From Bacteroidales bacterium (lineage in GTDB: Bacteria; Bacteroidota; Bacteroidia; Bacteroidales; Marinilabiliaceae), in NCBI GenBank assembly GCA_024401355.1, contig JAKSLF010000009.1, positions 1 through 64,000 on the forward strand: a DNA stretch of 64,000 bases, in the 5' to 3' direction. Both the position numbers and the translations under genes were made by a program. Shown here one piece after another: positions 4,279-24,045 of this stretch (position 1 is the stretch's first letter; each line of letters starts with the position of its first letter). The notes beneath the pieces are model-generated. The model was not told the origin of the DNA and made no database searches. It saw nothing but the letters and a program-made list of their open reading frames with translations.

Positions 4279-5280
4279 TTACTTTATGGCTCGAAATCTG
4301 TCTTGTAACTCCGAAAGCCTCTCCATTAAATAATCGTAGGAAGGGGCATCTTTGTAGATGAAGCCGTATTTCATTTGTTCGTAGTCTGAACGCAGCACGG
4401 AATCAATATTAGCTGGTGGCACAAACGATATCGTTTGAGGATTATGTGTGTTGTAATCCAATCCGCTCCACGCCGTAAAAGCTTTCCGATGGGCAACTAT
4501 CTCATCATACAGGGGACGGTTATTCATTGCCTCTATGGCGAATGGTCTGTCCATCATCTTGACAATGTCGTACATGTGGCGTGTGAGTCGTTCAGTTCGC
4601 GAACAACCGCCAGGTCTTGTAAATTCCTCATGGAGAAGAAATATCTTTTCAAGAAAAGTTCTTCCTGGTACAACTGTCGGAACATCCACAGCTGGCATCG
4701 CGAACTCTTCGTCAGGATAAGCGTCTTCTATCATGGAGCGCATTGCAATCCTCTCATAAGGCTCCATTAAAGAACGGCAACTGATTTCAATCTTGACACG
4801 CTCAGGAATGTAGTGGACAGCTTGACCTAGGACTGTATTGTACTCTACGAACATCACCACTGGGTCAAGATCACTAACCGAAGTCTCAGGAACAACGACC
4901 TTACATTCCTGAAGTACGCCGAACTCTGCCAACTTTGCCTCTATGTCGTGACAAAGAGTGCTGCAAATGAATCTCTTTGACTCCTTGCGTAGGTTTGTGC
5001 GTTGAGACTTGTTGAGTTCCTCTCCGAAGCCTAAGTATTTCCTGTCGATGGCTAAGTCAATGTCTTCAGAAAACCGTTCTATCAGATTCCATCCTTTGCT
5101 AAGGCTTGTGCCGCCCTTGAAGACAAGCGCATCGGAGTATGGTAACGAGAAAATGCTTCTCAATACCATGCTTACCCAATAATCCTTCTCTACTGCGTTT
5201 TCTACGATACCCTTATCGTCTGCTATATTGGTGAGGATTGTCTGCCTTTCCTCATTTGAGAGTTGCGTCCAAGCTATCAT
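4279..5280 (-). CDS. AbiEii-type nucleotidyltransferase toxin (type IV TA)
   Basis: This is the toxin of an AbiE type IV toxin-antitoxin pair, a DNA polymerase beta-like nucleotidyltransferase. In characterised members it causes reversible growth arrest by modifying RNA, including tRNA acceptor ends. Visible motifs are EKDYW (31-35), KGGTSLSKGW (55-64) and SEDIDL (71-76, with D73 and D75 as likely metal ligands). The 333-residue length is usual for the family. Its start overlaps the 3' end of the antitoxin gene by 29 bp, which implies translational coupling. The module sits between 135-bp direct repeats. All core motifs are intact, so the toxin is probably active. Confidence 0.9.
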   Translation of the reverse strand: MIAWTQLSNEERQTILTNIADDKGIVENAVEKDYWVSMVLRSIFSLPYSDALVFKGGTSLSKGWNLIERFSEDIDLAIDRKYLGFGEELNKSQRTNLRKESKRFICSTLCHDIEAKLAEFGVLQECKVVVPETSVSDLDPVVMFVEYNTVLGQAVHYIPERVKIEISCRSLMEPYERIAMRSMIEDAYPDEEFAMPAVDVPTVVPGRTFLEKIFLLHEEFTRPGGCSRTERLTRHMYDIVKMMDRPFAIEAMNNRPLYDEIVAHRKAFTAWSGLDYNTHNPQTISFVPPANIDSVLRSDYEQMKYGFIYKDAPSYDYLMERLSELQDRFRAIK

Positions 5281-5869
5281 ATACTTTCAATCTTTTTCTT
5301 ATCCAACCAGGAGCTATACTATAGTCGTATCTGACAGCTTCCTTGTCTTCGCATTTGTCTATTGCATCTTTTATGATGACAAGGTAATCGTCTGTAATAT
5401 TATGCTCGCCAATCTCCTTCATGGCGCAAACCACCAATGGGAAAACATCTGTCTTATACGCAAAATTTCTAGGCGCACTACGCTTGAATACAATAGTCCT
5501 GTTACCAATCTTGATTTCTCTGGCCGTTGCGTCAGTCAGATACACGGCGTTCATCGTGACTTGCGTTGACAGCCCAAGCTTGTTCAATGCGGTAAGTCCC
5601 GATGGTATTATGCGCGCCTTGTCCTTCTGTGCTATGGCAGCAGCAATGTCATCTATACTGGGTTTCAGTATTCCGAATCGGTTGCGTAGCGGATAAAGAT
5701 ATATGCCCTGCGACAGCCTCACCAGCATTCCTTCATCCTCCAGACGAGACAAAGCACGAGTCACCGACCCGTCGTTGTTCAGGTCGGCAAAGTCACGAAC
5801 CATATACAGGGTGTTCTCCCCTTGCGATTCGATGCGCTCTCTAATCTGTTTCGTTAAAACGTTCGACAT
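5252..5869 (-). CDS. AbiEi-type antitoxin / DUF6088 transcriptional regulator
   Basis: This 205-residue protein precedes and overlaps the AbiEii toxin. It has an N-terminal winged-helix region (about 1-65, with 'DGSVTRALSRLEDEGMLVRL') and a C-terminal AbiEi/DUF6088 domain ('IIPSGLTALNKLGLSTQVT'). Characterised AbiEi proteins neutralise the toxin without stable complex formation and repress their own promoter by binding inverted repeats. A 9-bp perfect inverted repeat lies 66-94 bp upstream of this start (5935-5963) and is a natural operator candidate. The family call is supported by both sequence and gene order. Confidence 0.88.
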   Translation of the reverse strand: MSNVLTKQIRERIESQGENTLYMVRDFADLNNDGSVTRALSRLEDEGMLVRLSQGIYLYPLRNRFGILKPSIDDIAAAIAQKDKARIIPSGLTALNKLGLSTQVTMNAVYLTDATAREIKIGNRTIVFKRSAPRNFAYKTDVFPLVVCAMKEIGEHNITDDYLVIIKDAIDKCEDKEAVRYDYSIAPGWIRKRLKVYDSLDATLK

Positions 5870-7120: not shown

Positions 7121-7300
7121 ATGAACACCGACAGATTTGACAACATCAATGATTTTGATGAAGAGTTTGACAACTACTATGAACAGCCAACATATGATGA
7201 CTATCATGGCTCATACGCTCAGGACGTAGAAGGCTGGTCGGACCAGGACATCGACGACGTGTTTGATGGTGATCCGGATATGTATTGGAACATTGATTAA
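7121..7300 (+). CDS. Small acidic protein (59 aa), unknown function
   Basis: The frame starts MNTDRFDNINDFDEEF and ends in GDPDMYWNID. It is very acidic (many Asp/Glu, few basic residues), with Tyr and Trp. The stop is 21 bp before the helicase start on the same strand, so it is the likely first gene of the operon. I recall similar short acidic proteins ending in 'YAQD...GDP..YWNID' from Bacteroidetes mobile elements, but their role is unknown. The charge could suit DNA mimicry or regulation of a nucleic-acid-binding partner; that is inference only. Confidence that it is a real gene comes from its amino-acid composition, length, position and recalled relatives. Confidence 0.7.
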   Translation: MNTDRFDNINDFDEEFDNYYEQPTYDDYHGSYAQDVEGWSDQDIDDVFDGDPDMYWNID

Positions 7301-7321
7301 CCCTTTTATCTGTACAAGCAC

Positions 7322-9076
7322 ATGATTACAAACAGAGACATAATCAACTATTTCGACCAAGAGGCGGAAGTTGCACGTAAGGACTATGAGGCACTAATGG
7401 CATTGCCAATCGAAGAACGGATAAAAAAACGGAAAGCAATAGCAGGCCTTAGACTCGATGCCGATTTTAGTAAGCAAGCTGAGAATGGTGATCACTTGTA
7501 CAGATTGATTGTCACGCAGAACCTTGCAGATTTTAAAGAAGGTGAATATTTGATGCTGCACAAGGAAGGAACATTTTATGGAATGCAGTGTTGTCTGTAC
7601 GAATTTGATGATGAGGATAATATTATCATCTCTGTTTATCATGCGAATGTTGACATGGATGTATTGTCCTCTGACAAGGGACTAGTATTGGATAAGGCCT
7701 TGGTAGATCTTCGTCAGCAAGTTTATTCCAACTTCTATTATGGGCTTAATTCCTGTTCGTCATATTGGGAGAATCATATCGTCAATAACAGTAGAGTAAG
7801 TAATCTTGAAGATATAAGCAAGAATGAAGAAGAACTTGATGATACCCTTAGTAATTATAATCTATCGATAACGGATAAGCAAAGAGAGTCAATTGTAAAT
7901 AGCATGTCGGCCAAAGACTTGTATTTGATTCAAGGTCCTCCTGGTACTGGCAAGTCATTTACATTGGCTCTTATCATTCTAGAAGAACTTCTATATTTTA
8001 AGCATAAGGTTGCAGTTGTTGGTCCAAATCACATGGCTATAAACAATGCGTTGATGCAATTGGTCAAACTATGTCCGCAATATGCGCCGGGAGTGGTAAA
8101 GGTCGGACAACCATATAATACATTTGGCATAGAGCCAGTTGCAGATAGTGATGGCGCAATGCATGAAATAGCAAAGGTAGACAGAATAAACGTTAATGGT
8201 GTAAACGGTTCGGATTTCGCTTTTCTATATGGCTTGACTCCTCATGCATTGTACACCTCAAGGGCAAGAGGGTTGGAATATGACACACTTGTGATAGATG
8301 AAGCGGGTCAGGTGACCATACCTTGGGCACTTATGGCGATGAAAGACGGGAAGAAGTGTATAATGGCAGGTGACCACAAACAACTTCCGCCAATCATCAC
8401 CTCTGATAAAATATCAGATGACCTCAAATATTCCATTTTTCAGAAGGTGATGAATAAAGACAATAGCACAATGCTTGATGTCTCATTTAGAATGAGAAAG
8501 CCAATATGCGACTTCGTTTCCAAACTATTCTATGATGGGGAACTGACGGCAAGTGTAGAGAGAACCGGTGATAAGGTGTTGTGTGATGACCCAATACTTT
8601 CGTTTGATACACCAATAGTATTTCAACATGTTGACGACAGAGGAATGCAGACATCAGACAAGGAAGCTCAGAAGATAATAGAGATGCTTGTTGATTATAA
8701 AAGACATGGTCTGCCTCTTACTGATGTGTGTGTGCTATCGCCTTTTAGAGCACAGGCGGCTAATATTCGTAGACAAATCAAGAAAAGTAAGGACCTAGCA
8801 GATGAAGACAAGAAATCTGTCATGGTAGATACTATAGACAAGATGCAAGGTCAGGAACGTGAAGTGGTCATTCTGTCGATGGCAGCAGGTGATATCGATT
8901 ATATGAATGAAGTTGGTGATTTCCTCTATAATCCAAATAAATTCAATGTCGCATTTTCAAGGGCGAAGTCAAAACTGATAATAGTTGGCAATGCAACCAA
9001 TTTGAAGAAGTTGGACATGACTAAATATCCACATATTAAAGGGATGCTGGAGAATGTGGATTGGGTAGTGGAATGA
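7322..9076 (+). CDS. SF1 (UPF1-like) DNA/RNA helicase
   Basis: A 584-residue superfamily 1 helicase of the AAA_11/AAA_12 type. Walker A is GPPGTGKS at 205-212, Walker B is DEAGQ at 326-330, motif III is GDHKQLPP, and the C-terminal RecA domain carries 'VDTIDKMQGQEREVVILS' and 'NVAFSRAKSKLIIVGN'. The N-terminal ~190 residues are not recognised and may form an OB-like domain as in UPF1/IGHMBP2. The gap between the two RecA domains is short, so it lacks large insertions. It is followed within 81 bp by the reverse transcriptase and is part of a four- or five-gene operon with a second SF1 helicase. The catalytic motifs are complete, so it should be an active ATPase. Confidence 0.9.
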   Translation: MITNRDIINYFDQEAEVARKDYEALMALPIEERIKKRKAIAGLRLDADFSKQAENGDHLYRLIVTQNLADFKEGEYLMLHKEGTFYGMQCCLYEFDDEDNIIISVYHANVDMDVLSSDKGLVLDKALVDLRQQVYSNFYYGLNSCSSYWENHIVNNSRVSNLEDISKNEEELDDTLSNYNLSITDKQRESIVNSMSAKDLYLIQGPPGTGKSFTLALIILEELLYFKHKVAVVGPNHMAINNALMQLVKLCPQYAPGVVKVGQPYNTFGIEPVADSDGAMHEIAKVDRINVNGVNGSDFAFLYGLTPHALYTSRARGLEYDTLVIDEAGQVTIPWALMAMKDGKKCIMAGDHKQLPPIITSDKISDDLKYSIFQKVMNKDNSTMLDVSFRMRKPICDFVSKLFYDGELTASVERTGDKVLCDDPILSFDTPIVFQHVDDRGMQTSDKEAQKIIEMLVDYKRHGLPLTDVCVLSPFRAQAANIRRQIKKSKDLADEDKKSVMVDTIDKMQGQEREVVILSMAAGDIDYMNEVGDFLYNPNKFNVAFSRAKSKLIIVGNATNLKKLDMTKYPHIKGMLENVDWVVE

Positions 9077-9157
9077 ATTGGGCGAGTGAAAAACGCTCGT
9101 TATTGTAACAAATGTTGTTTTTATCTCGTAGAATTAAATTTGAGAAATTATACTTCT

Positions 9158-10750
9158 ATGAGTGCGGGAAATTTCAATAATGTACTATCCCTTAATGCGG
9201 ATAAAGCTCTAGTTTTCTTCATGAACTCGGCTAGGTATTGTGGCTTTGAATTGCCAGAGTATTTTGAGTTTAATCCATTGCTTAAGCAGGTTCAGAAGTT
9301 AATAGGAGATACTCCTTTCAAAGATTGTTGTAGTGCAGACCCTGTAGAAATGGATAAAGTCAACTTAAACATTCTTTTGAACAAAGATGGCAAGTATGGC
9401 GTTCGTCCCCTTACTTTATTGAATCCGTTTCTCTATTACTTTCTATGCCGTGAAGTCTGTAACAAAAAAGCATGGCAAGCAATACGTAAGTGCTTTGAAA
9501 CGTTTGATGTGCCACATATCAAGTCCTGTGCCATGCCTGTCATTCCTAGCGACAAAGAATCTTTTCATAAGTCTTCGATAATTCTGAATTGGTGGAACTC
9601 GATGGAGCAACGATCTTTGGAGTTGTCACTTGAGTATCGTTATATGTTCGTGACAGACATCACGAACTGCTATGGCTCAATAAACCCTCAGTCTATCGAC
9701 TGGGCATTGAGCATGAAAGGAACCGCGCACGAGAATGGCGATAATCACGAGTTGGCCCAAAACATCATCAAGTACATTCAATGTATGCAGCACGGACAGA
9801 ATATCGGCATACCTCAAGGAAGCGAAATTCTGAACCTTGTAGGTGAGATTATACTCGGCTATTCTGATTTGTTGTTGCATGAAGCAGTGGAACGAGAGAA
9901 GGCTAAAGGCAATGATTTGGGCGACTTTGAGATACTACGTTATCGAGATGACTACAGGGTGTTCTGCAACAACAGGGACTCCTTGGAGCAGTTGTCATAC
10001 CTTTTGCAACAGGTACTGGAGTCATTGAATTTCAGAATGAATACTTCAAAGACTCACGTAAGCAACAGTCTTGTGTTAGACTCGATAAAGCCAGACAAGT
10101 TGGCTTATATCTATAATACACCTATATTCAACAAAAAGGGGTGTGACTTTGATGGTATTCAAAAGCATTTCTTGTATATACTGATGTTTGCGCATGAGCA
10201 TCCTAATGCAGGACAGCTAAAAGTTATGCTAACGGATTTAGATAATCGAGTCAAAGAACGTCTTGAACCTCAGTCATACAAAGATTGTAAAGGGGTAGAA
10301 AAAATATATAAAGGACATATTAAGGAAAATAAGCGAGTTATCATTGCGATCGCTATTCAGTTGGCCGTAGACAATGTGTCGGTAGTCAACTATGTTCTCA
10401 GAATCGTTAGTCGTATATTGGATGACATAGCTGATGTAAAAGAACGCAAAGAGATAATTGATCTTGTGTTCAAGCGTCTTCGCCATCAGCCTAACTCCAC
10501 ATATACTCAAGTTTGGCTTCAGAACATCACATACCAACTTGACAAGAAGAATAAAGTGAATCCATATGATCTCGCTTTGTGCCGATTGGTGATGGGTGAA
10601 GATGTAGAACTATGGAATAACACCTGGCTCAAGGACAAATACTCACATTTGTCCCTAAAGTCAATCATCAATAAGAAATCATTAAAAAAGGCAGCTCCTG
10701 TTATTACGTTCAGGGAAACTAGGGCGTACTATGAAGGTGTTTCTTTGTGA
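9158..10750 (+). CDS. Reverse transcriptase (RNA-directed DNA polymerase), YRDD type
   Basis: A stand-alone reverse transcriptase of about 530 residues. Motif A is 'VTDITNCYGSI' (catalytic Asp at 167), motif B is 'GIPQGSEI', and motif C is RYRDDYRVF with YRDD at 262-265 in place of the usual YADD. This places it among the defence-associated or unknown-group (UG/DRT) reverse transcriptases rather than typical group II intron enzymes; I cannot assign the exact group. The C-terminal ~200 residues are helical and unrecognised. A GTG at 9086 gives a 24-residue extension rich in Cys; I prefer the ATG at 9158 because the protein then starts with a family-like 'NADKALVFFMNSARYCGFELP' neighbourhood. 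It is 33 bp upstream of the GHKL ATPase gene in the same operon. Confidence 0.85.
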   Translation: MSAGNFNNVLSLNADKALVFFMNSARYCGFELPEYFEFNPLLKQVQKLIGDTPFKDCCSADPVEMDKVNLNILLNKDGKYGVRPLTLLNPFLYYFLCREVCNKKAWQAIRKCFETFDVPHIKSCAMPVIPSDKESFHKSSIILNWWNSMEQRSLELSLEYRYMFVTDITNCYGSINPQSIDWALSMKGTAHENGDNHELAQNIIKYIQCMQHGQNIGIPQGSEILNLVGEIILGYSDLLLHEAVEREKAKGNDLGDFEILRYRDDYRVFCNNRDSLEQLSYLLQQVLESLNFRMNTSKTHVSNSLVLDSIKPDKLAYIYNTPIFNKKGCDFDGIQKHFLYILMFAHEHPNAGQLKVMLTDLDNRVKERLEPQSYKDCKGVEKIYKGHIKENKRVIIAIAIQLAVDNVSVVNYVLRIVSRILDDIADVKERKEIIDLVFKRLRHQPNSTYTQVWLQNITYQLDKKNKVNPYDLALCRLVMGEDVELWNNTWLKDKYSHLSLKSIINKKSLKKAAPVITFRETRAYYEGVSL

Positions 10751-10783
10751 AACATTACAAACAGTTTATAAGTTTAATCGGCA

Positions 10784-11938
10784 ATGGCAAAGTTCACAAA
10801 TAAAACTCAATTAACTAAGGCATCAGACGAAGAAATAGAGGCTTTCTTCACTGAAACCACATTTGAAGGAATATACTCTTCTGAACTTAAGAGCAAGAAA
10901 AGTGAGTTCTATAAAGGTAGCATCACTGACATCAGATTGGAAGGAAGACCAACTAACATTGTAATGGCATTTTTGAATGTTCCCAATTCAAGTAATGGTA
11001 TTCCTGAAGGTCCATGCTCATTCAAGTGTAGAATGAATATTGCTGCTTTTAGAGCAGAAGACTCTAAATACATTGTAAATCTAGTTGGATCGTCACTTCG
11101 CTCTATCACCTCGTTGACAGAATCTAATGTCGTGGTTTCCGCTGCTGAAAGTAAAGAGCAAGATCTGTTTGACATGTGGGGAGTGGACAATTGTCAATGT
11201 ATCGGTTTTTATCACTACGATGAAGAAAGTGAAGTGTATGTCGTTGATGACTTACGCAAACCGAATTTTGACCATATCCCATATTATCCTGGAGACCAAG
11301 AAAAGAAGCCGATTCGCATCTTATATCCGCATGAGATTAGAGGAATAACCCCTAATGGCTATTATCTCTTCACGTGGAAATTGTCTCATAGGAACAAATA
11401 CAATCCTTATGAAATATTTTTGGATTTTAAAATACAGCCTCAACCTATCGATCCTAAATGGTTTATTGATACACTCTTTCATGATCGTCACAATGACAAA
11501 TCCAAAAACTTTGGTTCTGCAACTAACTTCCTTGATACGCTGAGTAAGCAGCTGAGTGCTAGGGAATCTACTTTCGTTTACGAACTTCTACAGAATGCTA
11601 ACGACTATCCAGTGGAAGGCCGTAGTGTCGATGTCGAGTTTCATATAACAGACAACTACTTGTTGTTCCTCCACTCAGGTGACAAGTTCAATGTAAGAAA
11701 CATTTCTGGTATCTGCGGTATTAATGAGAAAGAAAAGGTTGCCAATAAGAAGACCATAGGATACAAAGGTATTGGTTTCAAGACGGTTTTCCTTAACAAT
11801 CACTACGTATATCTGAAAACTGGCGATTATTCATTCAGATTCGATGAAGGTGAAACACCAGAAAAGAAAGTTGGTGGCAAGATTAAGCGTCTCGTCGCAC
11901 CTTTCCAGATTCTTCCTATTTGGACAGAGCACAAATAA
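10784..11938 (+). CDS. Sacsin-like GHKL ATPase, N-terminal part (ends at in-frame TAA)
   Basis: This is the N-terminal 384 residues of a giant protein. After ~230 unrecognised residues comes a GHKL (Hsp90-like) ATPase domain: N-box ELLQNAND at 267-274, 'LHSGDKF' in the G1 position, and GYKGIGFK at 326-333. It resembles bacterial sacsin-type ATPases. The frame ends at TAA 11936-11938, but the same frame continues open to 16759, and the residues straight after the stop (VDKEVNDIFDNSSRDFRVQI) look like normal continuation. The stop therefore looks like a nonsense mutation, a readthrough site or a sequencing error inside one 1,991-codon gene. It is co-oriented with the RT gene, 33 bp away. The ATPase half alone might still fold. 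Confidence 0.8.
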   Translation: MAKFTNKTQLTKASDEEIEAFFTETTFEGIYSSELKSKKSEFYKGSITDIRLEGRPTNIVMAFLNVPNSSNGIPEGPCSFKCRMNIAAFRAEDSKYIVNLVGSSLRSITSLTESNVVVSAAESKEQDLFDMWGVDNCQCIGFYHYDEESEVYVVDDLRKPNFDHIPYYPGDQEKKPIRILYPHEIRGITPNGYYLFTWKLSHRNKYNPYEIFLDFKIQPQPIDPKWFIDTLFHDRHNDKSKNFGSATNFLDTLSKQLSARESTFVYELLQNANDYPVEGRSVDVEFHITDNYLLFLHSGDKFNVRNISGICGINEKEKVANKKTIGYKGIGFKTVFLNNHYVYLKTGDYSFRFDEGETPEKKVGGKIKRLVAPFQILPIWTEHK

Positions 11939-14900
11939 GTTGACAAAGAAGTAAATGACATCTTTGACAATTCAAGTCGTGATTTTAGGGTTCAGATTGC
12001 TTTGCGTCCAGATAATAAGAGCCTCCTTCATGTAGGAAAGAATTGTTATGAGAATCTTTTCCGCGAAGTCTTTTCTGATTCTAATATTATTCTCTTTATC
12101 CCTAATATCAATTCTGTGCGAGTCTTCATCAATGGAAAGGAAGAACGTGCTTGTTTCCGCCAAAACGAGAAATGGATTGTTGGAGACTACGAGAATGAAA
12201 TAAAAGAAGAATTGAAGCAACTTATCAATAAGACTATTGAAAAAGGGAATAGCCGCATTCCAGAAAAATACAAAGATTTCGATTGTACTAAAGTATCGTT
12301 TGCTTGTAATCATAAAGGAGCCATGATCAAGCCTGTTGATGATGCACCCCTCTACTGCTATCTACCAACGAGGGCTGCATGGGGCTTCCCATTCCTTATG
12401 AATACAGATATGATTCCTAAAGGAGACCGTAATGATATTGAAACAGAGGTAAAACTCCTCGATGAGGACGAGACAAACTTCAACGAGGAATTAGCTTTTA
12501 TCGCAGGCTCAAAGTTATTTTTATGGATTCGCGATTTACTCACATCCAGAAAATATCAACTAGGTTCGGTGTTTTCGTTGGTTCCTGACTTCAAGAAGTG
12601 CAAGAGGGAACACAAAGATTATACAAGCTTCATAGAGAAGTTTGAGGAAGCATTTAACGCTTGCCTCGAAACAGAAACTATCATTCCTGTTCCTCATGGT
12701 ATAGCTCTTGTCAACAGGGTTATATTAGACACGACTGGACTCAGTTCTTCTGGAATAATAACAGATGACGAGTTCCGTAAGTTCGTAGATATGGAGGATT
12801 ATTCTCTTCCATTGCCTATGCTACGAAATGACAAGCATTTTGACTCGTTCTTAAAACGCTATGCGGAGGAGGATCAGATATTTGAAATCGAGGATTTATC
12901 AAGTCTGATTGACAATGACGAATTTCAAAAGTGGTTAAAGGACCAAGTCAACAATAATAATTTCATAAATTTCTTGTTGGAAAAAGAATTATTAGATGAT
13001 TTTTCTGAGCAGCCTATATTCATAAACGAAACTGATGGGGAATTATGCTGTGCGAGAGATTTGTATTATGACGTTGATGAATACATAGATGACTTGTCTT
13101 TCTTTTCAGACGAATACTTGCATAGAGTATCGAATGAAACTAAGGCGTTCTTTGAAGGTAATGAAGTATTCGCAGACTTCGTGTCTCGATATTTTGAGGT
13201 GTTTGACAGTAGCGACTTTGTGTCTGAATTATATAACAGTACTAATAGGGAATCTACAATTCAAACATTATCTAATGTTGACAATTCTATAAGGTTTGTT
13301 CATTTCTTGGCTAGCGAAAAAATTGATGACGATTATGTTTCTGTTCCGTTGTATAATGCTAGGCAAGAGTTAATAGATACAGTGGCTATACTTTTTTTTG
13401 ACAGAGATAATAAGCGAGGATACGAGATAAAGCAAATGTCATGGCTTCCGTCAAATGCATATGATTTTGTTTCTAATGATTATATGCTAAGAGACAAAGA
13501 TATCGTAGAGACATTTTTTGACAATTATGGTGTTCGGACTTTTAGCGAAGATATTGTAATCAATGAGATTGTGCTCGAAGATGATAGTGTTGGTTCCATT
13601 AATGATAACATAAAAACCATAAGTGATAGCGTAGAATTTATTTCCTTTTTGGAAAAAAATGAAAATATGATATCTGAGGATGTTTTCAATTCTTCATTTA
13701 AGGTATATGTTAACAATGGTGGGGTGTCATCTTTTGATACAGTTGATAATAATACATTCTTTTCATCTCAGTTGTTTGATTCATTTGATTCTTTGTCATG
13801 GAATGATAACTGGTTATTTGAACTTGACGAGTTGTATTTTGATGGATTGAACGAAGCACAGAAGACGATAAGAAAGAGTTTCTTTGCCAAAACATTTGGT
13901 GTAAGGAATATTACTAAGGAGATATTCTATGATGAGTTCATTTCTGATAAACTGAAAGAATTAAATCTATTGATTCAAAAAGACAGAACCAAGAATATTG
14001 ATTTTTGGCGATGGGCACAAAATAATCTATCAACTAAGGCAGAAGAACTGCGTTCGCTTCATCTAATTGTCACAAATTCAGAGGAAGTGGAATCTTATGC
14101 AGCTCCTGATAGTACATACATATATATGTCTGACGTGTATATGCCTGGATGCAGTTGTATTGAAGGTTTTGTAAAAGAATATATTCCAGATTCACTATTT
14201 GTTTCTTCCGATTATGTAGATGATAAATCTAGTTCATCAATAGTCAAGTGGAATTCTTTTTTGAAGAGTCTTGATGTGTCAGCTGATGTGACAAGGATTC
14301 TTATTGATAATATTCTTCCTGACTTAAGTTCAATTGAGAATGATAATCTACCTTCATTATTAATGGCTAATTGGTCACAACTAAAAGAGAATGGCAAGGC
14401 TTGGGGCGATCTAAAGGAACTCAAATTAAGATGTAAAGACGAATCGTTTTATTCTTTGGAGGATTGCTGCCTAGTGAATACTGATAAAGAGCCTTTCGTA
14501 TGTGTTCCATTAGACAATGAATACAATCTAAAGACTAATGGTCAAGTTGGTTGGTTCATTTCTCAAATTGCTGAAAACAACGATATTGAGATTATCTCGA
14601 CTGCTTCAGATTGGAGAGTTGAAAAAATCAATAAATATTTACAGCTTCAAAATGATAGCGAATTGGAGAACGATATCCATTTTGCGTTTATCAACGAATT
14701 AGTTAGCCTAGAAGGTGACGAAATTGCCAAATTGAAAGATCAAATAGAAGAAATACAGCTTCTTTCTAAGGACAATGAATACTGTAATGTTGAGGATCTT
14801 ACATTAGGCCACATATATAACCCTATTTGCGATTTTGAAGCAAATGGAGTGGATTCATTGACATATTTGTCTGAGGATTATCACCGCAGGCAAACTAACG

Positions 14901-16759
14901 AGAAGAACCTTAGAGAAGTGTTCAAGATACATAGGTTCTTTGACAAGGATGATATTGAATTACTTGAAGACAATCCTGCATTTGCTAAGTATATTTGGTA
15001 TACATACATTAAAGATTCAAAGCAATACGATAAAATAAAGGGATATGCAGAAAAAGGTGATTTTGACGATGTCCCTTGTGTGTTGTCTCAAATTGGGGAG
15101 GTTTGTTCTCCTAATTGTTTGTACTCTGCTGAGATATCGGAGTACGTTAAGGGCAGAACTGAAGACTGGCAGTCCAAAACTATAGATTCTTATCTTGTTT
15201 CTTCTTATCCAGAATTAATTTCATGCCTTGATTTAAGGCAATCTTTGGATTTCAATGATTCACTGATAGCATTATTATATATTCAGTCTAAAGAGAAGCG
15301 CAAACAATTATTCGGATGGTTATGTGATGGAGATTATGACGAAGATGCTGTATCAAGATTCTTGGAAGATCCAAGAGCTACTTGGAAAAATAATAAAGGT
15401 AATGATGTTTTGATTAAAAATCTTTATGCGATTTCTCCAGACAACGAGCGACTGTTGAGTTACTTTAGGAAACATGAACGTATACTTGATGTGTCATACG
15501 TGAATAAGAGCGATTTTGAGGGAATATGTAAAATTCTTGGAATTACTATTATTGACGATAGTGATGTCGAGATAATGCCTAGAGATAAGCGGAAAGTAAA
15601 CTTACATTCCATATTTAACAGAAGTTTATTTGTGATTTCTTGTCTTGAAACAGAAGAATGGCGGGAAAGATATGAGAACTATAAACAGGAATTGCTAGAC
15701 GTTGAATTTTTCTCATGTAAGTCGATTAATATTGGCTACATAGTAGATGATGATAGTATTTCTGTAAGTGCGCAAAGGTTTTATTCTTGCGATAAGCAAA
15801 TTTACTATGTAGGATTGTGGTCTGATAGAAAAGTATACACAGATGTGGTAAGTGCAATTCATGAGAATCTCGATTTGTCTATAGACATTGAAAAGGCTAA
15901 GCAATTATTTGATCCTGATGAATCATTTGTTGATGTCATTAGTGAAGAATGTCGAACTTTGTTTAGTGATGAGGATTTTTTGATGGAACTGAGAAATATG
16001 CTACCGAGAGTGTATGGTTTGTTATTCCAGCATGAAGAAACAGATCCAAAGCCAAACAATTCAAATGACAAGAACCAAGAAACTGTTTTATCGAAAGAAT
16101 TAGGTGATTTACAGGGAGATGAGTATGTGGAAGAAGAAAGAGAGGGCGAATGCGAAGACGATGAAACAGCAAAAGATGACAACGATGAATGGGAACGTTC
16201 TGTATGTGATTATATGGGGGGCGGCTTCCAATTGCCTGAAGAAGAAGTTTTGGCTGAAAACATGATAACTAGATGGCGTGTTCTCAACTATTTGAAAGAA
16301 CATGACACACCTTATAAAATTTCAGCTTCATTCGATGAAGAACGGCAGAAAAAATATATACAAGGTAATTTAATAGTAATTACTTTAGATGATAATAAAA
16401 AACTATTAGCACAAGGCGCAAAAGGAGGTATATGGCATATTTCTCCAAATGTGTGGAGAGGATTTGAGAAAGAATCTCTTGTTGTTTGTCTATGTGTCGG
16501 TAATGGAGAAGAGGATTTTAAATTTGCGGAATCTTTAGACGACATTGAGCAATGCGCTGATACTCCAAATGTTTTGGTTAAGGTATCGCCAAAGGATGAG
16601 TATTCAATGATGGAATCCATAAATACGGTATTCCCTGGTCGAGATAATTACAAGATGAATATTCATCTAATGGTGAAAGTGCATTCTACAAAGAATAATA
16701 AGTTGGACAACATCTTTGATAAAGCATTTGATGCTCCTCAAGATGATTATGAGTTTTAA
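11939..16759 (+). CDS. Giant GHKL ATPase partner region, C-terminal part (in frame after the stop)
   Basis: This is the same reading frame as the preceding ATPase piece. If translated separately, the first plausible start is a TTG at 12002, giving 1,585 residues. The opening residues (LFIPNINSVRVFINGKE) resemble the part of sacsin-like proteins that follows the GHKL domain. The remainder is Asp/Glu- and Ser-rich, mostly unrecognised, with an acidic linker (about 16,060-16,190) before a C-terminal ~170-residue globular domain that I cannot name. Its stop is 2 bp before the helicase-PIN start, so the two are translationally linked. The long frame with no further stop argues that the interruption at 11936 is recent or tolerated. 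No nuclease motif is evident here. Confidence 0.75.
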   Translation, partial: VDKEVNDIFDNSSRDFRVQIALRPDNKSLLHVGKNCYENLFREVFSDSNIILFIPNINSVRVFINGKEERACFRQNEKWIVGDYENEIKEELKQLINKTIEKGNSRIPEKYKDFDCTKVSFACNHKGAMIKPVDDAPLYCYLPTRAAWGFPFLMNTDMIPKGDRNDIETEVKLLDEDETNFNEELAFIAGSKLFLWIRDLLTSRKYQLGSVFSLVPDFKKCKREHKDYTSFIEKFEEAFNACLETETIIPVPHGIALVNRVILDTTGLSSSGIITDDEFRKFVDMEDYSLPLPMLRNDKHFDSFLKRYAEEDQIFEIEDLSSLIDNDEFQKWLKDQVNNNNFINFLLEKELLDDFSEQPIFINETDGELCCARDLYYDVDEYIDDLSFFSDEYLHRVSNETKAFFEGNEVFADFVSRYFEVFDSSDFVSELYNSTNRESTIQTLSNVDNSIRFVHFLASEKIDDDYVSVPLYNARQELIDTVAILFFDRDNKRGYEIKQMSWLPSNAYDFVSNDYMLRDKDIVETFFDNYGVRTFSEDIVINEIVLEDDSVGSINDNIKTISDSVEFISFLEKNENMISEDVFNSSFKVYVNNGGVSSFDTVDNNTFFSSQLFDSFDSLSWNDNWLFELDELYFDGLNEAQKTIRKSFFAKTFGVRNITKEIFYDEFISDKLKELNLLIQKDRTKNIDFWRWAQNNLSTKAEELRSLHLIVTNSEEVESYAAPDSTYIYMSDVYMPGCSCIEGFVKEYIPDSLFVSSDYVDDKSSSSIVKWNSFLKSLDVSADVTRILIDNILPDLSSIENDNLPSLLMANWSQLKENGKAWGDLKELKLRCKDESFYSLEDCCLVNTDKEPFVCVPLDNEYNLKTNGQVGWFISQIAENNDIEIISTASDWRVEKINKYLQLQNDSELENDIHFAFINELVSLEGDEIAKLKDQIEEIQLLSKDNEYCNVEDLTLGHIYNPICDFEANGVDSLTYLSEDYHRRQTNEKNLREVFKIHRFFDKDDIELLEDNPAFAKYIWYTYIKDSKQYDKIKGYAEKGDFDDVPCVLSQIGEVCSPNCLYSAEISEYVKGRTEDWQSKTIDSYLVSSYPELISCLDLRQSLDFNDSLIALLYIQSKEKRKQLFGWLCDGDYDEDAVSRFLEDPRATWKNNKGNDVLIKNLYAISPDNERLLSYFRKHERILDVSYVNKSDFEGICKILGITIIDDSDVEIMPRDKRKVNLHSIFNRSLFVISCLETEEWRERYENYKQELLDVEFFSCKSINIGYIVDDDSISVSAQRFYSCDKQIYYVGLWSDRKVYTDVVSAIHENLDLSIDIEKAKQLFDPDESFVDVISEECRTLFSDEDFLMELRNMLPRVYGLLFQHEETDPKPNNSNDKNQETVLSKELGDLQGDEYVEEEREGECEDDETAKDDNDEWERSVCDYMGGGFQLPEEEVLAENMITRWRVLNYLKEHDTPYKISASFDEERQKKYIQGNLIVITLDDNKKLLAQGAKGGIWHISPNVWRGFEKESLVVCLCVGNGEEDFKFAESLDDIEQCADTPNVLVKVSPKDEYSMMESINTVFPGRDNYKMNIHLMVKVHSTKNNKLDNIFDKAFDAPQDDYEF

Positions 16760-16761
16760 TC

Positions 16762-19029
16762 ATGACTAAGATAGAACAGTATATAAAATTTTTTGATCTG
16801 CAACGTAGAGATCAAGAGGCAGAGTATGAGGAGTACGCCAAAACTCCTATGTCTTCGTTATTTGCTGGAGGAGAGGCTTATTATGGAGAAATAATGGGCA
16901 TTGATAAAAGTGGCAAAATTGTTATGCACTTTTCATCTTCACAAAATCCTAGACTAAAAGTCCCAATGGTCTTTTGTGTTCTTAAGGATAGTTGTGGTCA
17001 AGAATTAGGATTAGACTTTTCTAGGTGGTCGATAAATAGTATTGACTTTAGGTCAAGAACTTGTCACTCAAGTTTTTCTGATGCTACTCCGATTTATGCA
17101 ATGAAGGATGATAAGAAAACTATTGCATGCGATAAAATAGACCTGTTAATGTATCAAGCTATCGATAAGGCACTTCAGAATAATCGAAAATTGAAATTTG
17201 TAATGCTAAAAACATTACCTCCAACTGAGCTACTGAAAAATCTTAAGGAGTATATTCAAATACATCCTGAAGATGAAGAATTATTACTTGAAGCTAAGAG
17301 GACTTATGATGAATGGAATCCGTTAGAATTGGGAAGTACAGAACAAGTTGATGAAAAGGTATTGTCATCCTTAAAAAAGGATGGAATAGCCATTTTACAG
17401 GGTCCTCCTGGTACAGGAAAGAGTTATACGATAGCCAGTATTATTACCAAAGTAGCTTCGGAAGGGAAAAATATCTGCGTAACGACTCAAAGCAATGCAA
17501 GTCTTATATCCTTGATATCTCAGGATCCAATTAAAGAGTATAGAGGGTTGGGGAGAATTAGCAAAACAAACATAACAACAGATGAAAGTAGAGAGTTCCC
17601 CAAATTAAAAGGGGCAAACAAAGATCTGACAATACCTAAAGGCGAATTGCTATGTTCTACTTATTATTCTTTGTCTAGAGTAATAAATAAGAGTGATTCG
17701 CCATTGTATGATTTGATTATTATAGAAGAAGCATCTCAGGCTTATCTGACAGCTATTGCCGCATTCAAGAAATTGGGAAAGATGTGCTTGATTGTTGGAG
17801 ATCCAATGCAGTTGCCACCTGTTGTGAAAATTGATGTTCCTGCAGATTATGAAGGTATTGACATAGAGACGCAAGCTAACGGAATGATGACCACACTTAG
17901 AGCTACGGACATTATGAGTTTTCGTATTACCACATCATATCGTTTGACTGGAAAGAGTGCAAGACAAAGTAGTGTGTTTTATAATGGGCATCTATTAAGT
18001 GTCCAAAAGGATATCATTGATTTTTCATTGGTAACCGAACGTCCAGTTCTGTTCCCTCAAGAAGGTGGAACGATAATATTAAAGACAATGGGGGCTTCAA
18101 GTGCGATTTTGTCAACAGAAGCCCTTGAAATAATGAAGTATGTTGAACGAGAATTTAAAGGACATTATCCTACACGCAAATTGGCTATACTTACTCCTTA
18201 TGTGGAGACTACAAAAAAACTACAAGCTGAGTTTTGTAAGGATGAGCAAACATTAGATATAACAGTGGATACTATTCATAGAATTCAGGGTTTGACGGTT
18301 GACTATACGATATATTACGTACCTACTCGTAATTATAATTTTGCATTTTCGGATAACTTATTTAATGTGGCAACAAGTCGTTCTCGTTCAACTACTTTGT
18401 TGTTGACAGATCTTCCATTAGAGATGATGCCGATTAAGTCTACTAAGGTTCGTGCTTTTATGGCAGGTTGTGATATTATTAATAATGGTGGGAAAACATC
18501 AAATCAAAATGATACCCAAGAAGCACATAACGCGATTACAACTGAAACCAGTAAAGAAAGGATTGTTCCCAAAGTTATTGGATTTGTTGATCCGTCTACA
18601 TTTGAGCGCAAAAGAAAAGAAATCGTCTCTGACAAAAAAAATATATATGTTATTGACACCAATGTTTTTGTGAACTATCCAGATATTATTTCCAAAATCG
18701 GAGATAAGTATTCTATAGCGTTGGCAGCAAAAGTGGTTGATGAACTAGACAGAATGAAGATTAAGCTTGACGAGCAAGGTAAACGCAATGCTGAAAAGGC
18801 TATTCGAAACATCAACAATGTAAAACGTGATATCATGTTTGAGCTCTCAGATGTATCCCTATTACCATCTGACTTTGATAAGAGGTCACCCGACAATATG
18901 ATTTTGTCTGTAGCCATGAAATTAAAGGATGATAATCCTATATTATTAACATCGGATAATGGTCTTCAGGTAAAAGCTAAGATACTTGGATTTAAGACAA
19001 TATCGTTGAAGGATTTTCTGAGAAAGTAA
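16762..19029 (+). CDS. SF1 helicase fused to a C-terminal PIN nuclease domain
   Basis: A 755-residue protein. An SF1 helicase occupies about residues 190-590: Walker A GPPGTGKS at 214-221, Walker B 'IIEEASQ', motif III 'VGDPMQLPPV', then 'VDTIHRIQGLTVDYTIYY' and 'NVATSRSRS'. From about residue 628 there is a PIN domain: 'YVIDTNVF' with D632, 'VVDELDRMK', 'SPDNMILSVA' and 'LLTSDNGL', so the acidic residues expected for metal-dependent RNA/ssDNA cleavage are all present. The combination would couple unwinding to cleavage. It starts 2 bp after the GHKL gene ends, the tightest link in the operon, which suggests the ATPase and the helicase-nuclease act as a pair. No antitoxin is adjacent, so the PIN domain is probably controlled within the complex. 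Confidence 0.88.
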   Translation: MTKIEQYIKFFDLQRRDQEAEYEEYAKTPMSSLFAGGEAYYGEIMGIDKSGKIVMHFSSSQNPRLKVPMVFCVLKDSCGQELGLDFSRWSINSIDFRSRTCHSSFSDATPIYAMKDDKKTIACDKIDLLMYQAIDKALQNNRKLKFVMLKTLPPTELLKNLKEYIQIHPEDEELLLEAKRTYDEWNPLELGSTEQVDEKVLSSLKKDGIAILQGPPGTGKSYTIASIITKVASEGKNICVTTQSNASLISLISQDPIKEYRGLGRISKTNITTDESREFPKLKGANKDLTIPKGELLCSTYYSLSRVINKSDSPLYDLIIIEEASQAYLTAIAAFKKLGKMCLIVGDPMQLPPVVKIDVPADYEGIDIETQANGMMTTLRATDIMSFRITTSYRLTGKSARQSSVFYNGHLLSVQKDIIDFSLVTERPVLFPQEGGTIILKTMGASSAILSTEALEIMKYVEREFKGHYPTRKLAILTPYVETTKKLQAEFCKDEQTLDITVDTIHRIQGLTVDYTIYYVPTRNYNFAFSDNLFNVATSRSRSTTLLLTDLPLEMMPIKSTKVRAFMAGCDIINNGGKTSNQNDTQEAHNAITTETSKERIVPKVIGFVDPSTFERKRKEIVSDKKNIYVIDTNVFVNYPDIISKIGDKYSIALAAKVVDELDRMKIKLDEQGKRNAEKAIRNINNVKRDIMFELSDVSLLPSDFDKRSPDNMILSVAMKLKDDNPILLTSDNGLQVKAKILGFKTISLKDFLRK

Positions 19030-19105
19030 TTTGTTGCCTTCCCAGTTATTTGTATTATCTAGTTCATCAACTGGCTATGTTCCGAACTTGTGGTTTGCTT
19101 GATAA

Positions 19106-20794
19106 CTACATGAGTTCGGTGAGGAGTTGGGTGGCCGCGTCGCGTTCGTGCTCGATGTCGCTTTGGCTTAGGGGGAGGAGGAGTTCGATGGCTTTGTCGA
19201 TGTCGCGTTCTATTCCTATGCCGTCTTTGTAGCAGAGGGCCAGTTTGTATTGTCCGAGATGGTTGCCTTGGTCGGCTGCCATCTTGTACCATTTGTAGGC
19301 CCATTCGTATGACATGTCACCTTGGCCGTTGAGATCATAGTTGGCGTTGCCCATTTCTATCTGAGCCTCAGCTACGCCCTGGTGCGCTGCTTGGGCAAAG
19401 CATTCAATAGCCTTGACTGTATCGACTTCTATGCCGATGCCGTTTTTGTAGTAAAGTCCTAGTCGGTATGATGCGAACGGATGATGGCTTTCGGCAGCCT
19501 TCGACAGGTATTCTATTGCCTTGTGATGATTGACGAAGCCCTCTTCGGTGGAATAGACCATGCCAAGCCAGTATAGAGCATCGGTATCGCCCATGTCGAC
19601 GGCCTTTTTGAGGTACTTGATGGCTGTGCTGACATTTTTTTCAATATGTGTTCCGACAAGTAGTGCTCCAGCATATTTAAAACATGCCTCGACATCACCA
19701 TCGTCGGCAGCGTTGCGGTCTTGTTCTGTGGCTATGATTTGATTCATCTCGTCGATGAGGGCCTTGACTTCTTCGTCTTGGCCATTTTTCAGTTTGTCGG
19801 CTTGTGTGGCGAATTTCAGGGCTGTTTCGATATCGTGATCGACATTTTTGCCATGAAGCATTAGCTCTGCAATAAGTTTGTAGGCTTCTTCAATTTCGTA
19901 GAAACAAAATTCCGATGTATTGATGGCATATCGAAGGGCAATATAGTCGTTACGGTCAACGCATATTCCATTGTGATAGCATATAGCCATCAGATAATCT
20001 ATCGATGGGCAAATTGGCATGACGGAGAGAACCTGCTGCATAAGATTCCACGATTTTTTATGGTCGGCTTCTACACCAAGTCCGAATAGATATGCATGGG
20101 CCAGGTAGATCTTAAGTGTGTCTTCTTCAAATCCTCTAACATTCTCGATAGGCTTGAGGATGTCGTAGGCTCTATTTCTGTCGTCGTCTAATAGTGCCAA
20201 GTAGAGTTTATGTGCAATGATGTCGAAGCGGCCGTTGTTCGTGTTTTCTGCTTTCCTCAACAAATCGGCAGCCTGCTCCTCGTCCTTAGGCATTCCAATA
20301 CCAATTTTGTTGAAACGAGCCATCATGCAATATCCCCACGCCTTGTTTTCATCCATTGCCTTCTTGGATAACGTAATGGCATACTGAATGTCGTATTGAA
20401 GTATTGATCCCAAATAAATGCCTGTGCAAATTGTTGAGTCGAAATATTCGTCGCCATCTTCGTGCTTGTACAAGACATATTTGATAGCTCTTTCGTATTC
20501 GGAGTTAATGAGCAGCATAAGGTATTCGGAAACGAGACCTTTGTTGTGAGTTTCGTCGCCCAATCCGATGCCTTCATAGACGCAGACGCAATAGGCGTAC
20601 ATGCCGTCCATGTCGCGGCGGTTGCAGTATTTCTTGGCGTATCTGAATGCTAGTTGCTGGTAGTACTCGCAATGATGTGTTTTCCTGTCGTCGGCTATGG
20701 CGAGCATGAATGCTTTCTGGGCGGCTTCGTCATCTCGTTCGGCTTGTCTTTTCAGCAATATAAGACCTATTTCTTTCTTGAGTGATTCAAACAT
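19106..20794 (-). CDS. Sel1/TPR repeat protein
   Basis: A 562-residue helical-repeat protein. Sel1-like units are clear in the C-terminal half, for example 'AIKYLKKAVDMGDTDALYWLG', 'AIEYLSKAAES' and 'KWYKMAADQGN'; the N-terminal half has more degenerate repeats. No signal peptide or membrane segment is visible, so it should be cytoplasmic and act as a binding scaffold. It is the last gene of a five-gene minus-strand operon, 83 bp downstream of the CHAT protease gene. Sel1 and TPR proteins are often substrates or activators of CHAT and caspase proteases in conflict systems, which makes it a candidate target. The function is inferred from context only. Confidence 0.8.
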   Translation of the reverse strand: MFESLKKEIGLILLKRQAERDDEAAQKAFMLAIADDRKTHHCEYYQQLAFRYAKKYCNRRDMDGMYAYCVCVYEGIGLGDETHNKGLVSEYLMLLINSEYERAIKYVLYKHEDGDEYFDSTICTGIYLGSILQYDIQYAITLSKKAMDENKAWGYCMMARFNKIGIGMPKDEEQAADLLRKAENTNNGRFDIIAHKLYLALLDDDRNRAYDILKPIENVRGFEEDTLKIYLAHAYLFGLGVEADHKKSWNLMQQVLSVMPICPSIDYLMAICYHNGICVDRNDYIALRYAINTSEFCFYEIEEAYKLIAELMLHGKNVDHDIETALKFATQADKLKNGQDEEVKALIDEMNQIIATEQDRNAADDGDVEACFKYAGALLVGTHIEKNVSTAIKYLKKAVDMGDTDALYWLGMVYSTEEGFVNHHKAIEYLSKAAESHHPFASYRLGLYYKNGIGIEVDTVKAIECFAQAAHQGVAEAQIEMGNANYDLNGQGDMSYEWAYKWYKMAADQGNHLGQYKLALCYKDGIGIERDIDKAIELLLPLSQSDIEHERDAATQLLTELM

Positions 20795-20877
20795 AAGCGA
20801 TGTGTTTTAGTTCGTAATGAAAGATTTTTTGATATTAATACCATCGACAGGCAAAAGGTAAACAGGGATGTGTTGGG

Positions 20878-22797: not shown

Positions 22798-22809
22798 AAA
22801 GGCATTGTT

Positions 22810-23478
22810 CTATAGATTGTCTATTTCGTCAATAATCTTTTGTGCATCAGCGGATATCACCTTGTTGGGGTTGTTCTCGATGATTTCCAAGAGGACCTCT
22901 TTGGCTTTGTTTGGCTTGTTGCGATAGAGATAAGCCATGGCCAGGTTCATTCCCAAAGAGTTGTAATAGTTAGTGTAGTCGTTGTATACGCTTTGTTTGG
23001 ATATCTCGTATAGTTCGGCCAATTTAGTAACTACCGATTCATCATTAGACAACACTCGATAAGACAATTGTGTAATCTCCTTCTCTATGTCATCGTTATC
23101 ACTATCTCCTCGACTATAGGCAGCCATCAATTCAGAGGAGTAATACTTCTGTGCCAAATCTTGTGCTTGGCCCACTCGATGATTGTGGAACAGAAGCAGT
23201 CCGCACGACAGGCAGATTATAAGCATAGCTGCCATTTGTATGAACTTGTGGCGATACCATGCTATTGGCTCTCGTGTGCTCTCGATGATTTTTCTGTCAC
23301 GTTCAGCACGAATATTCTTTATTAGATAAGCCATAGCCTGTGCTCTTTGCTTAAGTTCCTCATCTTGAGCAAGAGTCGCTTTGAACTCGCTTTCTTGTTC
23401 TGGTGACATTTCCTTCTTGAGAAATGCCTCTATTTTAGTGTCGAATTCCATCAGGAATTCTTCTGTTCTTTCTTCCAT
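22810..23478 (-). CDS. Single-pass membrane protein with TPR-like tail, putative anti-sigma factor
   Basis: A 222-residue protein with an N-terminal cytoplasmic region (1-~72, including 'IEAFLKKEMSPEQESEFKA', reminiscent of anti-sigma N-termini), one membrane segment (about 75-93, FIQMAAMLIICLSCGLLLF), and a C-terminal helical region with a TPR-like unit ('GMNLAMAYLYRNKPNKAKEVLLEII'). It lies directly between the ECF sigma gene (7 bp gap) and the CHAT gene (12 bp gap). Its topology and place suggest that it holds the sigma factor at the membrane. That role is inferred; no zinc-binding anti-sigma motif is present. Confidence 0.65.
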   Translation of the reverse strand: MEERTEEFLMEFDTKIEAFLKKEMSPEQESEFKATLAQDEELKQRAQAMAYLIKNIRAERDRKIIESTREPIAWYRHKFIQMAAMLIICLSCGLLLFHNHRVGQAQDLAQKYYSSELMAAYSRGDSDNDDIEKEITQLSYRVLSNDESVVTKLAELYEISKQSVYNDYTNYYNSLGMNLAMAYLYRNKPNKAKEVLLEIIENNPNKVISADAQKIIDEIDNL

Positions 23479-23485
23479 AGGACTA

Positions 23486-24031
23486 CTATTTTAAGAACAT
23501 TTTAAATGCTCTTTCTTTAAATTTAGACATGCAGCGACTCTTGGTCGATTTCACCGTGTCGGCATTGTTGTAATTCAATATTATAGCCAATTCTGCCATA
23601 GAGTGGTCATCAGCGTAATAACCCCATAAGATTTCGTTGCAGGGCTTGGGCAGATCGTTTACTATCTGACGGACAAGTCTGTTGCGTTCTGCTCGTTCTG
23701 GTTCTTCGTCAAGTAATTCGTCAATTTTTTCATTATTGTATATGTCCTCATAATCCACCGTGGGCTTGATGGATAGAGTGTGTTTTGACGCCTGATTCCA
23801 GCATATCGAACCGAAATACGTTGACAATGAACTTGTCAGTACCTTGAGTTTCCCATTGACAATATTCTCATACAATGCTATAGATGCATTCTGATATATG
23901 TCGTCTAGTTCATCGTCAGACAATGAACTAAAATGTTTGCGAACATAAGCCTTCATCTTGCCGCTCATCTTGTCGAAGAATCTATTGAGTTCGACTGATG
24001 ATGATGGTATTTTATTCTTGCTGCTTGCCAT
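23486..24031 (-). CDS. ECF-type RNA polymerase sigma factor
   Basis: A sigma-70 family protein of 181 residues when started at the ATG 24031. Region 2 is visible around 'DDELDDIYQNASIALYENIV', and region 4 around 'LPKPCNEILWGYYADDHSMAELAIILNYNNADTVKSTKSR' split across its helix-turn-helix. The open frame extends to 24133, but that start overlaps the caspase gene and adds non-family sequence; 24031 leaves a 14-bp gap, as expected in this operon. It would direct transcription of the operon or of an unknown regulon, possibly under control of the membrane protein encoded next. Confidence 0.8.
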   Translation of the reverse strand: MASSKNKIPSSSVELNRFFDKMSGKMKAYVRKHFSSLSDDELDDIYQNASIALYENIVNGKLKVLTSSLSTYFGSICWNQASKHTLSIKPTVDYEDIYNNEKIDELLDEEPERAERNRLVRQIVNDLPKPCNEILWGYYADDHSMAELAIILNYNNADTVKSTKSRCMSKFKERAFKMFLK

Positions 24032-24045
24032 ACTTACACCATTTG

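Follow-up and report, generated by a model that had tools for sequence, protein, structure and literature searches.

A Bacteroidales Abi-P2-type reverse transcriptase ahead of interchangeable ATPase and helicase modules: a candidate composite phage-defence operon

The DNA considered here, referred to below as the window, is a stretch of 64,000 nucleotides from a Bacteroidales bacterium of the Marinilabiliaceae (contig JAKSLF010000009.1, positions 1 to 64,000), whose genome assembly (GCA_024401355.1) amounts to 2.9 Mb in 69 contigs and is 85% complete. Between positions 7121 and 19029 five genes follow one another on the forward strand, encoding a small acidic protein, a superfamily 1 (SF1) helicase, a reverse transcriptase (RT), a giant GHKL ATPase and a second SF1 helicase that carries a PIN nuclease domain (Table 1). 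Four of these are clean open reading frames (ORFs). The gaps between the genes are 21, 9, 33 and 2 bp, the second of these becoming 81 bp if the RT starts at ATG 9158, and the ORF coordinates thus bear out the co-orientation and close spacing reported in a preliminary description that was made from the letters of this DNA. Gene maps, here and at all the loci discussed below, are longest-ORF calls rather than the output of a gene finder. The best reading of the comparisons that follow is that a Bacteroidales subclade of Abi-P2 polymerases repeatedly plugs into what appear to be interchangeable ATPase/helicase modules.

Table 1. Genes and features of the putative operon in the window.
Feature	Position	Strand	Basis
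59-aa acidic ORF	7121..7300	+	C-terminal part alone recurs; no usable library match
SF1 (IGHMBP2/MkoA-like) helicase, 584 aa	7322..9076	+	AAA_12 6e-38 (Pfam); MkoA 2.7e-60 (PADLOC)
Abi-P2-type RT / protein-primed polymerase	9086..10750, likely start 9158	+	PADLOC AbiP2 2.8e-163; PDB 7r08 6.5e-56
Giant sacsin/TmtA-like GHKL ATPase gene, interrupted	10784..16759	+	TmtA PDLC03972; NCBIfam sacsin domain
In-frame TAA within the GHKL gene	11936..11938	+	ORF reading
SF1 helicase with C-terminal PIN nuclease domain, GHKL partner	16762..19029	+	AAA_11 7.5e-19; PIN_4 1e-19 (Pfam)

The RT matches Pfam RVT_1 at 7.9e-10, and its match to the PADLOC profile AbiP2 (PDLC03744) runs over the full length at 2.8e-163, whereas the next class, Drt6, reaches only 4.4e-35. 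The nearest solved chain found with phmmer is 7r08. Priming by Abi-P2 needs Tyr61 and not Tyr46, according to the Abi-P2 paper, with which the numbering of these two residues in chain 7r08 agrees (PMC9508834). In the phmmer alignment Tyr59 of the window RT faces Tyr61, and Phe44 faces Tyr46. The Tyr59 position is occupied by tyrosine in all 39 RTs of the clade defined below that are ungapped there (2 of the 41 rows are gapped) and likewise in all 38 of the more distant RTs, and the YRDD motif together with the aspartate of motif A is present in all 79 RTs aligned. Judged by its sequence, the window RT is an Abi-P2-type polymerase that retains the catalytic YRDD and the priming tyrosine. Although its frame is open from GTG 9086, the starts of four homologues fall near the residue just after ATG 9158, so that a gap of 81 bp before the RT is likelier than one of 9 bp.

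The third large gene had been described as a sacsin-like GHKL ATPase of about 1,990 codons. The family assignment stands, while the single open frame does not, for an in-frame TAA that had been passed over divides the gene into 384 and 1606 codons in the same frame. L013 holds an uninterrupted homologue of 2210 aa to which both pieces align, the one before the stop at 36% identity and the one after it at about 30%, with few residues between; the break therefore falls within a single gene and does not separate two. Given an assembly of 69 contigs and 85% completeness, the stop may be real or an assembly error; with its GHKL gene interrupted, the window copy may be inactive. The two pieces match the PADLOC profile of TmtA (PDLC03972) at 1e-44 (N piece) and 6.3e-43 (C piece), and NCBIfam NF047352, a sacsin N-terminal ATP-binding-like domain, is matched at 1.2e-18. 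TmtA is by itself the one-gene system Tiamat, and lone TmtA genes linked to an RT do exist (L051, 1245 bits). In the window, however, the best stretches cover positions 4-153 and 156-713 of the 1302 in the profile, three further C-piece stretches being counted and not located, so that the remainder of the profile, like most of the last thousand residues of the GHKL protein, lies outside the best match. This partial coverage, and the pairing with a helicase-PIN gene, set the window protein apart from a whole-profile, lone-gene TmtA. An S1 RNA-binding domain is present at the N-terminus of the GHKL proteins in L035 and L039; hhalign gave no match to such a domain at the N-terminus of the window protein.

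The solved relatives nearest to the second helicase are of the SEN1 type. Its Walker A motif is kept in all 11 aligned rows that reach it, and the four acidic motifs of the PIN domain, whose residues we take to be the catalytic ones, in 8 of 8 (L014 ends before the fourth). The Pfam families bear out the earlier account of a second SF1 helicase carrying a PIN nuclease. Among 295 genomes of the order, 11 contain a relative of this protein, the source genome included. In the five best of the other genomes (L013-L017) the helicase, 26-46% identical to that of the window and with a PIN domain only in L013 and L014, stands directly behind a giant ORF that aligns with the GHKL protein. None of these five pairs has an RT, and none is among the four of the 295 genomes (the source genome included) that hold this RT at E 1e-40, which indicates that the GHKL/helicase pair is a unit of its own. 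No helicase-PIN was found on plasmids at E 1e-20, and no close relative in viral contigs. Two further observations concern these pairs. L014, the RT-less pair most like that of L033, has a TAA in its PIN region (14671-14673) and, by eye, a TAG in the start region of its GHKL gene, and GHKL/helicase-type genes seem to decay often. In L015 (101-18523, reverse strand) a GHKL gene and a PIN-less SF1 helicase lie within a large same-strand locus that also holds a type IIG enzyme-methyltransferase split into two ORFs, a DrmD-like helicase and a DruE-like helicase; by its gene content this would be another composite defence operon.

Both helicases of the window match MkoA over the helicase region (2.7e-60 for the first, 9.2e-24 for the helicase-PIN). 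Mokosh consists of an SF1 RNA helicase with a phospholipase D (PLD) nuclease and/or a kinase partner. The window, in contrast, has a PIN_4 nuclease instead of PLD, no PLD or kinase family being listed for the operon proteins by Pfam, PADLOC or NCBIfam, and the resemblance to MkoA likely reflects the generic SF1 core.

What follows this RT elsewhere was determined by searching genome contigs with an alignment of five RTs and retaining the best 80 of 389 relatives. On a midpoint-rooted tree 40 loci (L028-L067) form a clade with the window (support 100/100). Before counting, we dropped L020, which is the same stretch as L054, and the RT fragments L071 and L079. A module was defined as a same-strand run that starts within 150 bp of the RT stop and holds a gene of at least 400 aa. 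By this definition 20 of the 40 clade loci have a module, and 18 of the 20 contain a GHKL or helicase gene (17 of 19 if L056 and L059, which are 97% identical in DNA and were counted as two, are reduced to one), the exceptions being L030, with Sel1 repeats, and L062. The arrangement of the window, RT then GHKL then helicase with or without PIN, recurs in six of the 40 (L033, L035, L039, L045, L046 and L049), the gaps in these and in the window being 12-105 bp. The called ORFs of L035, L039 and L045 are unbroken, whereas in L046 the GHKL ORF is cut down to 679 aa and the helicase ORF to 367 aa, and the helicase ORF of L049 lacks its N-terminus. Behind the RTs of L041, L051 (the cultured Segatella baroniae B14) and L052 stands a lone TmtA. 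At nine loci the partner is or includes a helicase (L037, L043, L044, L047, L054, L056, L059, L060 and L065). That of L037 is PDC-M16A, and that of L043 is DpdF/UvrD-like and also matches the profile RTasHel, which PADLOC lists under defence-associated reverse transcriptases (DRT). L044 has an MkoA-like protein with, by eye, an S1-like start, followed by a giant protein with DarT and HD domains (15859-20997). L047 and L054 share an S1 protein, an SF1 helicase (in L047 recognized by BLAST only) and a giant protein with DarT (L047:16736-21586; L020/L054:16825-21660). Three RT-linked helicase modules thus hold a DarT domain, an ADP-ribosyltransferase that acts on single-stranded DNA (ssDNA) according to its Pfam description. 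The giant gene of L044 is followed by an ORF that by eye resembles a macrodomain antitoxin.

As a control we took the other large genes (at least 400 aa) of the same loci, of which 3 of 107 match any GHKL or helicase query; the contrast with 18 of 20 is partly circular, the queries having been chosen from the modules themselves. The near-copies L040 and L057 were removed from the control only, the L049 helicase was moved out of it, and the L036 helicase, 221 bp after its RT, was kept in it as one of the three matches. An independent Pfam scan of 82 of the 93 complete control genes found AAA_19 in 3 and UvrD in 2, among the 25 commonest of 165 families. Under stricter limits (same strand, gap of at most 60 bp, at least 450 aa) 16 of 41 clade loci qualified, with L020 counted among them, versus 6 of 38 outer loci. 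Within the family of the source organism an RT relative is present in 3 of 71 genomes, its own included, the other two being at 63% and 36% identity. Intact copies of the window locus were sought there, and the nearer relative (63%, taken as the L043 locus) has a different helicase module.

A second feature shared by part of the clade is a 28-base element in the RT leader, consisting of a TAnnTTTG box, which we take to be of the Bacteroidetes promoter type, and an imperfect palindrome. In 10 of the 40 loci it lies immediately ahead of the RT, at 52-118 bp from the called start except in L046, where it overlaps that start, and in L038 and L044 it is found about 800 bp before the RT, ahead of a NusG-like gene, making 12 of 40 in all. 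The 1.62 Mb of loci contain one further copy, on the reverse strand of L046, and the shuffled sequences none. The consensus was written after inspection of the same loci, so its presence in them is partly built in, while its near-absence elsewhere is not. Loci with the motif have a GHKL/helicase module in 10 of 12 cases versus 8 of 28 for the others (Fisher p 0.002, relatedness not corrected). The leader of the window RT scores 16 of 28, within chance. In the 295 genomes of the order there are 5 matches with at most one mismatch versus 4 for a reversed control pattern, that is, the motif is at chance level where the RT clade is rare. No exact match to one pattern was found in viral contigs, the L020 viral contig having a variant outside that pattern. 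Rfam gave no match in the window, and the alignment of the leaders from the 10 loci is conserved mainly across the short motif, no structure search having been made. These data suggest common control of RT and module in the motif-bearing loci, the window not being one of them. The NusG/KOW-type gene just mentioned (L044:9242-9967) has relatives in L037, where it likewise precedes the RT, and in L038, where it is fragmentary; it could be a specialised antiterminator needed for very long operons.

The histories of the RT and its partners can be compared. On a tree of the helicases the 7 pairs that have an RT and the 5 that lack one are interleaved, at least 4 changes being forced, and some relatives differing in this respect are close, as in L033 (with RT) and L014 (without), whose helicases are 72% identical, or L045 (with) and L013 (without), at 54%. 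This interleaving implies that the RT joined or left such pairs repeatedly. The DNA itself tells a similar story, for L045, L041 and L051 are 84% identical from about 150 bp before the RT start to its stop and then continue into three different modules. An upstream stretch of 3.2 kb common to L045 and L051 abuts the RT leader in L051 and lies 6 kb before it in L045. L035 and L049, on the other hand, align without break across the RT-GHKL border. Taken together, exchange and continuity indicate that the RT joins, leaves and swaps partners and is sometimes inherited with them. A resemblance may be seen to the nuclease-protease pairs of Hachiman, AVAST, Lamassu and DRT, in which one module has been plugged repeatedly into unrelated immune systems (PMC12799240). 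At our loci the shared module is instead the RT, and the variable parts are the GHKL and helicase genes.

We hold with considerable confidence that the parts are correctly identified and that the operon is composite. That it is a phage-defence operon with a GHKL/helicase-PIN core, in front of which an Abi-P2-type polymerase has been joined, and that the two are coupled as proposed here, seems to us evenly balanced; functional coupling of RT and module, taken by itself, is put forward tentatively, at slightly less than even confidence. In the proposed mechanism the RT would prime on its own Tyr59 and make untemplated ssDNA that stays bound to it, and this adduct would restrain or license the ATPase/helicase module. 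Phage replication or recombination proteins acting on the adduct would then release the GHKL/helicase-PIN pair, which may unwind nucleic acid while the PIN domain cleaves RNA, and the cell would stop growing. The report on DRT1, an RT-nitrilase, describes such a logic, in that template-free, protein-linked DNA adducts regulate an effector and the T4 helicase Dda is part of the activating network, although the effector there is the nitrilase domain of the same protein and here would be the product of separate ATPase/helicase genes (PMC13275509). By analogy, this precedent and the DarT domains of three modules would lend the mechanism some support. A generalization, which we consider unlikely, is that the clade is a portable immunity control unit, in which a shared leader/operator and self-linked random ssDNA would arm or restrain whichever nucleic-acid-dependent ATPase effector follows, be it GHKL with helicase-PIN, TmtA, S1-helicase with DarT or a RecD-type helicase.

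The main alternative is that the loci are nested but independent defences, a self-sufficient Abi-P2 RT having been packaged before other modules with co-transcription only and no common mechanism. We regard this as possible, at somewhat less than even confidence, and several observations speak for it and weigh against coupling. Besides the five RT-less pairs, a GHKL/helicase module is absent from 22 of the 40 clade loci (in some the sequence ends shortly after the RT, and in L036 a helicase lies 221 bp on), and Abi-P2 in phage P2 is a system of one gene. The histories of the RT and its partners differ: on the RT tree the label GHKL plus helicase-PIN requires 5 changes versus a shuffled mean of 5.5, and all four partner labels 7 versus 8.3, a value as low being reached in 30 of 200 shuffles, while trees of the RT halves give 7 changes (N half, 26 of 200 shuffles as low) and 8 (C half, 110 of 200). 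With labels near chance on all three trees there is no sign that RT and partners diverged together, and co-divergence was rejected. The hindsight in the leader consensus, the chance-level score of the window leader and the broken GHKL gene of the window also count against coupling. Finally, more distant AbiP2 RTs, in other phyla, sit inside type I restriction operons, which favours embedding. HsdR follows within 200 bp of the RT in L081, L091, L092, L099, L101, L104 and L106 and further downstream in L082, L085, L088, L089 and L100; PADLOC named REase_I for L081, L088, L091, L092, L099 and L104, in which hsdR lies directly behind the RT or at up to about 4 kb from it, and the other HsdR loci were recognized by BLAST. 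The genes of L081, in the order HsdS-RT-HsdR, overlap by 4 bases at one junction and are 21 bp apart at the other. Against independence stand the non-random choice of partners in the modules, the repeated joining to the same partner class and, in 10 loci, a motif directly before the RT that is rare elsewhere. HsdR is itself a helicase-type ATPase, so a preference for helicase operons need not mean coupling. Relatives of the RT, none reaching 60% identity, are also present on 120 plasmid records and 6 phage records. A tested precedent for embedding is TgvAB, which lies within a type I restriction-modification locus and protects independently of HsdR (PMC11411939).

The operon may also be a decaying remnant, formerly RT, GHKL and helicase-PIN and now non-functional in this strain, so that only the RT or nothing acts, a doubtful but appreciable prospect that is compatible with either coupling or independence. 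The in-frame TAA and the broken appearance of other copies (L046, L049 and the RT-less L014) point that way, whereas the other four genes of the operon are open with the checked active-site letters kept, and faulty assembly or a variant carried by a minority could account for the stop. The preliminary description, for its part, had taken the four large proteins, from the first helicase to the helicase-PIN, as one system. The recurrence of the RT with the GHKL/helicase pair upholds a portion of that proposal, and co-orientation and short gaps in the window agree with it. As a whole it is largely refuted, and we consider it highly improbable: the RT and the pair are each found separately, the RT also precedes other ATPases and helicases, and the first helicase is not a recurrent neighbour of the RT, having only weak matches (23-32%, to parts of other helicases) in 7 of 81 RT loci. 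Its three best relatives among the 295 genomes, in other genomes and at 30-32% identity, have no RT or GHKL match beside them, so the first helicase is probably a separate acquisition. Two of these three adjoin a second, larger SF1-like ORF (L120:8164-13348, 1133 aa; L121:9630-14817, 1081 aa), which may be an independent unit of two helicases. The 59-aa ORF, too, is probably outside the core system. It gave no usable match in Pfam, PADLOC or NCBIfam, and its similarity (54-75%) to L048, G302 and G306 is between its C-terminal part and the ends of longer ORFs there; only this tail motif recurs, in 1 of 81 RT loci (L048, 4.6 kb before the clade RT) and, of 41 genomes, in 2 others, and the ORF was rejected as a conserved component. 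By these comparisons the first helicase and the 59-aa ORF would be bystanders or a separate defence unit.

The preferred reading concerns the RT and the GHKL/helicase-PIN pair. Abi-P2 polymerases are marked by protein-primed DNA synthesis without a template and by assembly into trimers. Compared with Abi-P2, the window RT shares the whole-length profile match, the YRDD motif and the aligned priming tyrosine, and differs in sitting in an operon with ATPase/helicase genes behind it. The parts already have names (AbiP2, TmtA-like, SF1 helicase, PIN), and as a named set the combination appears to be new. PADLOC 2.0.0, NCBIfam, Pfam and open-licence papers yielded no name for RT, GHKL and helicase-PIN together, in keeping with the earlier claim that no named system has this combination; a survey of UG and Abi RTs (Mestre 2022) lies outside that search and may mention it.

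The surroundings of the operon were described as an island with an AbiE toxin-antitoxin module and a ring-nuclease-like gene. A Pfam and PADLOC scan, limited to 10 neighbouring genes, found the former (antitoxin gene at 5252-5869, toxin gene at 4279-5280) and named no ring nuclease. Downstream, on the opposite strand (19106-24957), is a cluster of genes for a Sel1-repeat protein, a CHAT-domain protein, a weak-TPR protein, a protein without family and a caspase-domain (Peptidase_C14) protein, which looks like a separate protease-based module.

Repeated wiring of one Abi polymerase clade to helicase and GHKL effectors, if true, would make it probable that the untemplated, random DNA of these enzymes works on, or by way of, a partner driven by ATP. 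The role of that DNA in the cell could then be probed through the priming tyrosine and a named partner. Coupling would in addition account for some of the modularity of defence islands in Bacteroidales, and annotation tools would do well not to report RT, TmtA and helicase as separate systems of one gene each. If independence is true instead, the clade would still be a clear case of one Abi gene repeatedly embedded in different defence operons.

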